Source: Succinispira mobilis DSM 6222 (GTDB lineage: Bacteria > Bacillota > Negativicutes > Acidaminococcales > Succinispiraceae). From it: a stretch of DNA of 64,000 nucleotides. This document shows, piece after piece, positions 28,941 through 64,000 of the stretch (position 1 is its first letter; every line of letters starts with the position of its first letter). Below the pieces are notes generated by a model. The model ran no database searches. It saw only the letters and a program-made list of their open reading frames with translations, and was not told the origin of the DNA. A program made the translations under genes and the position numbers. The stretch covers positions 492,351 to 556,350 of the forward strand of contig NZ_KB913028.1 in NCBI RefSeq assembly GCF_000384135.1, in the 5' to 3' direction.

Positions 28941-29609
28941 GTGGGTCAAAAAGTACATCCGCATGGATTTCGAATCGGCGTTATCAAAACTTGGGATTCT
29001 AAGTGGTTCGCTGATAAAAATTATCAACAGTATTTACTAGAAGACATTAAAGTACGTGAGTTTGTAAAAGAAAAATTATTCACAGCTGGTATTTCTCGCG
29101 TAGAAATCGAGCGGTCTTCAAATCGCATGGTGGTAATTATTCACACTGCGAAACCTGGCATGGTTATTGGTCGTGCTGGTTCAAATATCGAATTACTAAA
29201 AAAAGATATCAAAAAAATGACAACAAGTGATCTTGATATCAAAATTCAAGAAGTAAAACAACCTGATATGGATGCTACATTGGTTGCGGAAAATATCGCA
29301 GCTCAATTAGAAAGACGTATCGCTTTCCGTCGTGCTATGAAACAATCTGTAACACGTACAATGCGTATGGGCGCAAAAGGTATTAAAGTACAAGTTGGCG
29401 GTCGTTTAGGCGGCGCTGAAATAGCTCGTTCTGAAGGTTATCGTGAAGGTAGCATTCCACTTCATACTCTAAGAGCTGATATCGATTATGGTACAGCAGA
29501 AGCACATACAACTTATGGTCGTATTGGTGTAAAAGTATGGATTTATAAAGGTGAAGTACTTCCAACAAGCAAGGAGCCTGTGGTTCAGCCTGAGGGAGGG
29601 AAAAAATAA
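28941..29609 (+). CDS. rpsC: 30S ribosomal protein S3
   Basis: 222 residues, GTG start after GGAGGG. KH domain with the GRAGSNIE stretch, mRNA-entry face in the C-terminal half. Its stop overlaps the rplP start (TAATG), so the two are coupled. Confidence 0.97.
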
Positions 29610-50920: not shown

Positions 50921-51022
50921 CTCTTATCAAGAGTGGTCGAGGGACTGGCCCGATGACACCCGGCAACCAACACGTAAAGTATGGTGCTAAATCCAGCAGG
51001 ATTAATCCTGGAAGATGAGAGG
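50921..51022 (+). promoter_or_regulatory. SAM-I (S-box) riboswitch
   Basis: Shows the S-box core: CTCTTATCAAGAG start closing with GATGAGAG, GGTCGAGGGACTGGCCCGATGA-type P2 arm, CCCGGCAACC, TGGTGCTAAATCC and the P4 hairpin. Binding SAM would expose the terminator that follows and shut off metQ when methionine is plentiful. Confidence 0.96.
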
Positions 51023-51098: not shown

Positions 51099-51902
51099 AT
51101 GAAAAAAAGTTATTTATCTATTTTCCTAGTAGTGCTATGTTTGGCACTTACCGCTTGTGGTGGCCAAGCTAAAAAAGAAGAAGGCAAAACTCTAAAAGTG
51201 GCGGCGACAGCTGTGCCACATGCAGAGATTTTAAACTTTGTAAAACCGTTGTTAGCTAAAGAAAAAATTAATTTAACTGTAGTAGAAATGGCCGATTATG
51301 TGCGTCCTAATGTGGCTGTTGCTGATAAAGAGTTAGATGCAAACTTTTTTCAACATACCCCTTATTTAGAAAAATTCACTAAAGATCGTAAGCTGGATTT
51401 AGTGAAAGTCAATGGTGTTCATGTAGAACCAATGGGTATTTATTCTAAAAAAGTTAAAGATTTAAAAGATATTCCCGCAGAAGCTACAATTAGTATTCCG
51501 AATGATCCAACTAACGGGGGTCGCGCTTTATTATTATTAGAAAAAGCAGGCATAATCAAATTAAAAGATAAAGCGGGTATTACAGCTACAGTTCAAGATA
51601 TTGTGGCTAATCCTAAAAACGTAAAAATTAAAGAAATTGAAGCCCCACAATTACCAAGAACTTTAGATGATGTAACTTTAGCGGTAATTAATACTAACTA
51701 CGCTTTAGATGCAAAACTTAATCCAACTAAAGATGCCTTAGTTATCGAAGATAAGAATTCTCCTTATGTAAATATTTTAGTTTGCCGAAAAGGTGAAGAA
51801 AACAGACCAGAAATTCAAGCTTTAGCAAAAATATTAAATAGCCCAGAAGTTAAGAAATTCATTGAAGAAAAATACAAAGGTGCTGTTGTAGCAGCATTTT
51901 AA
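51099..51902 (+). CDS. metQ: methionine ABC transporter substrate-binding lipoprotein MetQ/NlpA
   Basis: 267 residues. Lipoprotein signal with LTAC lipobox (Cys20), then the NLPA fold: TAVPHAEIL, FFQHTPYLE, EPMGIYSKK, IPNDPTNGGRALLLL. Binds methionine for the MetNIQ importer. ATG at 51099 after TTGGAGG. Controlled by the SAM riboswitch upstream. metN and metI are not next to it, which is unusual, so this is a solitary binding protein gene. Confidence 0.93.
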   Translation: MKKSYLSIFLVVLCLALTACGGQAKKEEGKTLKVAATAVPHAEILNFVKPLLAKEKINLTVVEMADYVRPNVAVADKELDANFFQHTPYLEKFTKDRKLDLVKVNGVHVEPMGIYSKKVKDLKDIPAEATISIPNDPTNGGRALLLLEKAGIIKLKDKAGITATVQDIVANPKNVKIKEIEAPQLPRTLDDVTLAVINTNYALDAKLNPTKDALVIEDKNSPYVNILVCRKGEENRPEIQALAKILNSPEVKKFIEEKYKGAVVAAF

Positions 51903-58688: not shown

Positions 58689-61516
<2,828 letters not shown>

Positions 61517-61574
61517 TTAGGCAAAAAAGATTAAAGTTTTTGCAGCACAATAAGGGCAGATAAGGGATATTATA

Positions 61575-61622
61575 GGCGATTCAATGAAGCTTTAAGTTTC
61601 ATTGAATCGCCATTGAATTTTT
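61575..61622 (+). terminator. terminator of the glycolytic operon
   Basis: Perfect 14-bp stem GGCGATTCAATGAA with its complement (61575-61588, 61598-61611), then a T-rich tail. Confidence 0.8.
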
Positions 61623-61682
61623 GTTATAACGACATATTCCAGTACTATTTCAGTCCTAGGAATTTTTGTGTATAATTATTTT

Positions 61683-61765
61683 TATTGAGCATGATTTGAA
61701 AATCCACCTTTGAGCGATTTCGCAACTTTATCAGAAAGGATTTTTCAAGATCATGCTCATTTTTC
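61683..61765 (+). ncRNA. candidate small hairpin RNA of about 80 nt
   Basis: TATAAT at 61671-61676 is followed by a stretch that is almost one long hairpin: TGAGCATGAT (61686-61695) with ATCATGCTCA (61750-61759), then TGAAAATCC with GGATTTTTCA (one bulge), closed by about 35 nt, and TTTTTCT after the base. It could be a small RNA with its own terminator or only an unusual terminator. No good -35 was found. Confidence 0.35.
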
Positions 61766-61842
61766 TATAAAAAATATGCTGTGATATGCAGAAAATTTCC
61801 CTAGCACACAATATATATTATAGAGCCGCTGTTTAATTTAGC

Positions 61843-62076: not shown

Positions 62077-62167
62077 TTATGCACAATAGGAAAAAAGCAG
62101 AAACAACAAAAAAATACAAAAAAATGTGGATAACACTGTGGATAATATGGGTAAAACTTGTTGATAA
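62077..62167. other. cluster of DnaA boxes
   Basis: Two perfect boxes TGTGGATAA (62125-62133, 62137-62145; complement TTATCCACA), one TTATGCACA (62077-62085, fits TTATNCACA), one TGTTGATAA (62159-62167, one mismatch) and a poorer TATGGGTAA (62146-62154). A 30-bp A/T-only-type run follows at about 62181-62210. Looks like a DnaA-binding region, either titration/regulatory or origin-like. Flanking genes both run rightward and dnaA is not here. Confidence 0.7.
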
Positions 62168-62251
62168 AGTTTATGAGCTGAGATAAAAAAATTTTTGTTA
62201 AATTTATTACAGAAAAAGCTCTAAAAAAGCATAAAAACACCATAAAGTTAA

Positions 62252-62280
62252 TTGTAAGGCTTGACTTGATGTGTTAAAAT
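62252..62280 (+). promoter_or_regulatory. putative promoter of secG
   Basis: TTGTAA (62252-62257), 17 bp, TAAAAT (62275-62280) with extended TGt. Lies 85 bp after the DnaA boxes. Confidence 0.5.
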
Positions 62281-62311: not shown

Positions 62312-62542
62312 GTGGAAACCGCTTTAATGATATTAGATGCTATACTGGCTGTAATTTTGATAATTTCGGTAGTTTTACAATCTGGCAAAAGTTCAGGTTT
62401 AGCTGGGGCCTTAGGTGGTGGGAGCGAAGGACTTTTTACTGGTAAAGCAAAAAGCAGTGATGCTATGTTGGCACGAGTAACGATGATTACTGGTTCGCTG
62501 TTTGGGCTCGTAACACTATTATTGGCAAAAATCACTAGTTAA
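62312..62542 (+). CDS. secG: preprotein translocase subunit SecG
   Basis: 76 residues, GTG start after GGAGGG. Two transmembrane helices around the conserved LQSGKSSGLAGALGGGSEGLF loop. Third subunit of SecYEG; its neighbours secE and secY lie with ribosomal genes, whereas secG follows eno as in many Firmicutes. Confidence 0.93.
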   Translation: METALMILDAILAVILIISVVLQSGKSSGLAGALGGGSEGLFTGKAKSSDAMLARVTMITGSLFGLVTLLLAKITS

Positions 62543-62616: not shown

Positions 62617-64000
62617 TTGGGTAATTTTTTATTTTTAGCTATGGCCATCGGCCTAGTAGCACTTATTGTAGCTTATTTATTGGATTTAGCTATTAGCCGT
62701 GCAAGTGCAGGTAATGCGCGTATGCAAGAAATTGCTGGCTACATCTCTGAAGGGTCTATGGCCTTTTTGAATCGCGAATATAAATATTTATTCGTGTTTG
62801 TAGCAGTAGTTGCGGCAATTATTGCCGGATTTATTGGTTTTGAAACAGCAGTATGTTTCGTAGCAGGAGCTATTTTTTCAATTTTGGCTGGTTATTTTGG
62901 TATGCGAGTGGCAACTATTGCTAACGTGCGTACTGCAGAAGCAGCTAGACATGGGATGAGCGAAGCTTTAAAAATCGCTTTCTCTGGTGGGGCAGTAATG
63001 GGTCTTGCCGTAGTAGGTTTAGGTATTTTAGGTTTAGCTATTGCTTTTATGGTATTTAAAGGTGATACAAATATTATCACTGGTTTTGGTTTAGGTGCAA
63101 GCTCAATTGCCTTGTTTGCCCGTGTAGGTGGCGGTATTTATACTAAAGCTGCTGACGTAGGTGCTGACCTTGTAGGTAAAGTTGAAGCTGGTATCCCTGA
63201 AGACGATCCTCGTAACCCAGCAGTTATTGCCGATAACGTAGGTGATAACGTAGGTGACGTTGCGGGTATGGGTGCTGACTTATTTGAATCTTATGTTGGT
63301 GCGATTATTTCTGCACTTACTTTAGGTGCAATTGTATATAAAGGTGGCGAAGGTGCAATTTTCACATTTGCACTAGTAGCAGCTGGGATCGTAGCCTCTG
63401 TAATTGGTATTGTTTTTGCTAGAAACATGAAAACTAGCAATCCACAACAAGCTTTAAATATGGGAACTTATATTGGCGGTACGCTAGTAATTGCCGCTGC
63501 TGCATATTTGAGTACTACAATTTTTGGTGATTTCAAAGCATTTTACGCAATCGCAGCTGGTTTAGTAGTGGGTATGATGATTGGTAAAATTACTGAGATC
63601 TATACTTCTGGCGATTATGGATATGTTAAGAAAATTGCCCAACAATCTGAAACTGGTCCAGCAACGACAATTATTTCAGGTTTAGCTGTAGGGATGTATT
63701 CAACTTTATGGCCAATGGTATGTATTTGTGCTGGGGTTTTGATTTCTTTCTTCGCTATGGGTGGCGCACAAGACGTAGGTATGGGTCTATTTGGTATTGC
63801 TCTAGCTGCAGTAGGGATGTTGTCTACAACTGGTCTTACTGTTGCGGTTGATGCTTATGGTCCAATTGCTGATAATGCAGGCGGGATCGCTGAAATGTCA
63901 GAATTGCCTCCATCAGTACGGGAAATCACTGATAAACTTGACTCTGTAGGTAACACTACAGCGGCTATTGGTAAAGGTTTTGCGATTGGTTCAGCAGCAC
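62617..64000 (+). CDS. hppA: membrane-bound ion-pumping pyrophosphatase, 3' end outside window
   Basis: Open from a TTG at 62617 (AAGGAG 8 nt upstream) to the window end, 461 codons. Many transmembrane segments; substrate-site motifs [20 protein letters not shown] and [20 protein letters not shown] bind Mg-pyrophosphate. The late segment [11 protein letters not shown] has Ala where K+-independent enzymes have Lys, so it should be K+-dependent. Pumps H+ or Na+ using pyrophosphate; the ion cannot be decided here. Completes an energy-saving link with glycolysis and biosynthesis that release PPi. Confidence 0.95.

Follow-up and report, generated by a model that had tools for sequence, protein, structure and literature searches.

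The intergenic region between eno and secG carries a compact cluster of four DnaA boxes outside the origin of replication, and we consider it probable that this site is a lineage-specific extra-oriC cluster that binds or titrates DnaA. The window analysed here, a stretch of 64,000 nucleotides, corresponds to positions 492351–556350 of a genome consisting of one contig of 2,085,243 bases. In favour of this reading, the boxes are intergenic, lie past the 3' end of eno, and occur in a genome that encodes DnaA; against it, there are four boxes only, and their location is not kept in 29 relatives from the same order.

Four DnaA boxes in the eno–secG gap

The gap measures 795 bp (30% GC) and is bounded by eno, encoding enolase (60224–61516), and secG (62312–62542), with hppA, encoding a membrane pyrophosphatase (62629–63999, running off the window), next in line; all three genes are on the plus strand. 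The gene names proposed in the first-pass annotation were upheld, secG and hppA by matches to Pfam families PF03840 (SecG, E=3e-16) and PF03030 (H_PPase, E=1e-172), and eno by tblastn matches next to secG in relatives. The four boxes fall within 91 bp (62077–62167), and both the perfect boxes and the near-consensus boxes listed by that annotation are present. The two perfect TTATCCACA boxes (62125–62133 and 62137–62145) are both on the minus strand, 12 bp apart from start to start and separated by 3 bp; they are accompanied by two boxes with one mismatch each, TTATGCACA on the plus strand (62077–62085) and TTATCAACA on the minus strand (62159–62167). The box-NNN-box layout of the perfect pair (62125–62145) is the same as that of an oriC pair of its own genome (258684–258704), and the box-bearing segment is present in a single copy. 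As quoted in PMC7561715, a cluster comprises three or more consensus-like DnaA boxes spaced, on average, less than 100 bp apart; the four boxes found here, intergenic and outside oriC, fall within that definition.

An A/T run had also been described next to the boxes, and such runs are found at 62107–62127 and 62184–62211. Duplex stability in the gap is lowest in a 50-bp A/T-rich stretch that lies between the boxes and secG (62180–62229, −1.07 kcal/mol per step); this stretch is nevertheless more stable than the AT-rich elements of oriC (−0.96).

Another part of the gap is taken up by one end of an insertion sequence of the ISL3 family, now decayed (61535–61827, minus strand), in which the N-terminus of the transposase is interrupted by stops. 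Other copies of this end lie at genome positions 1121484, 1749226, 10141, 59438 and 1549764, the copy at 1121 kb holding the longest transposase pieces seen. A fifth one-mismatch box, TTATACACA at 61667, is located within the relic and is probably unrelated to the four-box cluster. The relic also contains a strong hairpin (61686–61759, z = −4.7), which was rejected as a small RNA gene because it belongs to the decayed multi-copy element. Searching the gap against Rfam for RNA genes and riboswitches gave nothing at the gathering score near the site, chance matches only. Elsewhere in the window, a SAM riboswitch was detected at 50921–51021 (Rfam, 88.9 bits).

The box cluster exceeds chance expectation

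Where eno and secG are adjacent in relatives, the distance between them is 131–421 bp in 12 of 15 cases and about 1.3 kb in the other three. Judged from these sequences, the 795-bp gap has probably been enlarged in this lineage, partly by the ISL3-family end, whose presence explains the width of the gap in part and is separate from the boxes. Boxes could arise fortuitously in such an AT-rich, lineage-specific spacer, with an incidental function or none, and the size of the gap, the decayed insertion sequence and the lack of conservation of the boxes between families are in line with this. The composition of the gap, however, does not reproduce the cluster. Among 5000 dinucleotide shuffles of the same 795 bp, not one had four boxes of one mismatch or fewer within 91 bp, nor did any contain two perfect boxes; five boxes with at most one mismatch were observed in the gap, compared to a mean of 0.19 per shuffle. 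Shuffling the whole window 200 times likewise yielded no four-box cluster and no tight pair of perfect boxes. The box cluster therefore exceeds chance and its layout, in addition, matches that of the oriC pair, so that we regard a fortuitous origin as quite unlikely.

Across the genome, perfect boxes number 40, with 30 matches for a reversed control pattern, showing that single boxes carry little information. Pairs are far more discriminating: perfect boxes in the same orientation with a gap of at most 30 bp occur four times, and the control pattern never. Two of these four pairs overlap at oriC, one lies at 231441–231458, and one is the pair in the eno–secG gap. A TTATNNACA pair search in all orientations added one further convincing cluster, at 51546–51691, most other TTATNNACA pairs being AT-rich variants at a rate near that of the control. 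Similar box density across the genome, which would have spoken against a special site, was thus not seen; besides oriC, comparable clusters were found only at 51.6 and 231.4 kb, a handful per genome, in pattern searches limited to gaps of at most 30 bp, which could miss wider-spaced or more degenerate clusters. The cluster at genome positions 51546–51691 (L072:1452–1597) has five boxes, two perfect and three close variants; it adjoins an ORF of the 97–105-aa type without a Pfam match, downstream of a ppk-like gene. The cluster at 231315–231458 (L037:6315–6458) has six boxes and lies about 26 kb from dnaA, with a rubrerythrin-like gene on one side and what seems to be the end of a 5S rRNA on the other. 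No further cluster of at least four boxes was found in 451 kb of sampled sequence. Three boxes at 29021–29145 were rejected as a cluster, being 55–61 bp apart, without a perfect box among them, and situated in an apparent coding region.

None of the three extra-oriC clusters is more than 0.3 Mb from oriC. If placed uniformly, three clusters would lie that near to oriC with a probability of about 0.02, a value computed post hoc, and their closeness to oriC could be chance.

The chromosomal origin lies at dnaA

A chromosomal origin between eno and secG had been judged unlikely in the first-pass annotation, which named GC skew and the location of dnaA and dnaN as checks, and both bear out that judgement. 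The sole full DnaA of the genome, with both domains, is encoded on the minus strand at about 257.0–258.5 kb, within an rpmH-dnaA-dnaN region (about 256.8–258.9 kb) at which the GC skew switches sign. After dnaA come dnaN, a gene for an S4-type small protein and recF, and on its other side lie rpmH, rnpA and the yidC region (gene names here, except dnaA, were assigned by reading translations). Boxes are clustered in both gaps flanking dnaA, with three perfect ones at 258684–258723. The dnaA–dnaN gap contains TTATCAACATATCAACAGCCCCTACTACG and, after it, a very AT-rich stretch; its elements are, in order, TTATCAACA, TATCAACA, GCCC and CTACTA, and then the strong AT stretch. This matches the order of box, GC-rich spacer and trios known from other Bacillota (PMC7561715; PMC8287927), although in the tract seen here the triplets are of the CTA/TTA type only in the first two positions and in two later ones. 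The rpmH-dnaA-dnaN region is a normal bipartite oriC.

The eno–secG cluster lies 297 kb from dnaA and oriC, on a replichore without a local skew change. In the twenty 20-kb stretches sampled in addition to the window, the skew rises between 253 and 261 kb, from about −0.2 to about +0.2, and is positive in all sampled stretches through 1.2 Mb, with values of about +0.13 to +0.25 in those at 300–720 kb and a constant course over 540–620 kb.

With boxes in tandem and an A/T-rich stretch adjoining them, the site resembles bacterial oriC and the basal unwinding system (PMC8287927), and its oriC-like box-NNN-box pair with A/T runs beside it could suggest a relic or second origin, for example an integrated replicon or a relocated copy of oriC. 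A permissive published pattern (a box, a spacer of at most 16 bp and, on one strand, three or more NAN triplets) is likewise present, only by way of a T-rich tract. Unlike the dnaA–dnaN gap, however, the eno–secG boxes are followed by neither a GC-rich spacer nor CTA-type DnaA-trios (3'-GAT-5'), the A/T element is the more stable one, replication genes such as dnaA and dnaN are not adjacent, and the skew switches at dnaA and not here. A second origin is rejected on the skew, the missing trios and the clear oriC at dnaA, and an origin-derived site of any of these kinds is extremely improbable.

Position relative to secG and hppA

For the role of the site, the first-pass annotation had offered DnaA titration or DnaA-dependent regulation of secG-hppA. 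As a class this is the best available; of the two proposals, regulation is the weaker one, given that none of the boxes overlaps the predicted promoter of secG. This promoter is of the sigma-70 type with an extended −10 element (TTGTAA-17-TAAAAT, 62252–62280, plus strand) and is predicted from a consensus match only, in a region where such matches are about as numerous as chance expects. The last box ends at 62167, which leaves about 85 bp to the predicted −35 element (62252) and 145 bp to the start of secG, both of them downstream.

As a promoter element regulated by DnaA, the site would, once occupied by DnaA, raise or lower transcription of secG-hppA with replication status. The boxes are indeed intergenic and upstream of secG, with hppA next on the same strand, and in B. 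subtilis DnaA regulates several operons from such clusters, including sda, ywlC and trmE (PMC4447404); regulation would also be compatible with titration. On the other hand, the distance of the boxes from the predicted secG promoter is too great for simple occlusion, both secG and hppA have housekeeping roles, and the boxes do not recur upstream of secG in the 29 relatives compared (see below). From this analysis, direct control of secG-hppA by the candidate DnaA cluster is possible but weaker than titration, and we consider it unlikely that the site is primarily a promoter element.

Comparison with known DnaA-box clusters and proposed role

The closest counterparts of the eno–secG site are the extra-oriC clusters of B. 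subtilis (Okumura 2012, as cited in PMC5295017 and PMC13220808), six of which jointly delay initiation, the removal of all six leading to early initiation (PMC5295017; PMC13220808). Like these, the eno–secG cluster is intergenic, carries several TTATNCACA boxes, belongs to a set of a handful per genome besides a bipartite oriC at dnaA, and occurs in a member of the Bacillota. It differs in box number, with four boxes compared to 7–11 in most strong B. subtilis regions (4 at trmE; PMC4447404 Table 1), and in its neighbours, which in B. subtilis are ywcI/vpr, gcp/ydiF, trmE, ywlC, sda and yydA. The B. subtilis clusters are known from binding and deletion data, the eno–secG cluster from its sequence. 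E. coli likewise concentrates boxes near oriC (PMC12371093), and its datA locus, which lowers DnaA availability and has five high-affinity boxes (PMC5295017), is a non-origin box cluster like the one described here; datA differs in spanning about 1 kb and in acting with IHF by promoting DnaA-ATP hydrolysis. As it stands, the eno–secG site is an unremarkable example of an element type already known from Bacillus.

By titration, DnaA would bind the two perfect boxes, whose spacing and relative orientation are those of the oriC pair, and may spread cooperatively from there to the two weaker boxes. Since the locus is 297 kb from oriC on chromosome arms of about 1.04 Mb, it is duplicated early after initiation. 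The duplicated locus could then hold a share of the free DnaA and help to delay re-initiation, by analogy with the six B. subtilis clusters. If DnaA does bind, this Negativicutes-type lineage would have its own set of DnaA-holding sites, which would make it possible to test whether the timing of initiation depends on how many such sites lie near oriC, or on their dose, and not on where exactly they are placed.

Box clusters in other Acidaminococcales

Conservation of the boxes in related genomes, a further check named at the outset, gave a result that goes against the expectation. The relatives compared belong to other families of the same order, and in none of the 29 in which the secG locus was read did the 800 bp preceding secG contain two or more boxes (0/29). 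On the sequences compared, the position of the cluster is one seen so far only in this lineage.

Box pairs as such are widespread in the order. Perfect pairs occur in 40 of 63 genomes, and the control pattern gave none; in 28 of the 63, at least one perfect pair is separated from dnaA by more than 15 kb or is carried by a different contig, the latter not being proof of distance from dnaA, as many of these assemblies are fragmented. Several locations recur. In three relatives (L171, L194, L196), box clusters are flanked by a RarD-like gene on one side and a UxaE-family gene on the other, and a cluster beside a 97–105-aa ORF without a Pfam match is shared by the query genome (at 51 kb) and two relatives (L166, L167). 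Directly downstream of tsaD, a box pair is present in seven relatives from three genera (L173–L177, L181, L184), and the tsaD of the query genome (L201) is without such a box cluster. We take tsaD to be the gene called gcp in B. subtilis. A strong DnaA-binding region lies downstream of gcp in that species (PMC4447404).

We tentatively raise the possibility that extra-oriC clusters are a regular feature of the Acidaminococcales, a few sites recurring while others, such as that between eno and secG, are lineage-specific and turn over. If this were the case, initiator titration would be an old, conserved layer of control in the Bacillota, and total titration capacity, not position, would be under selection.

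Four genomes of one genus (G012:C1, G013:C31, G014:C4, G017:C4) contain a second match to the DnaA C-terminal domain about 3 kb from dnaA, in each case beside further box pairs.
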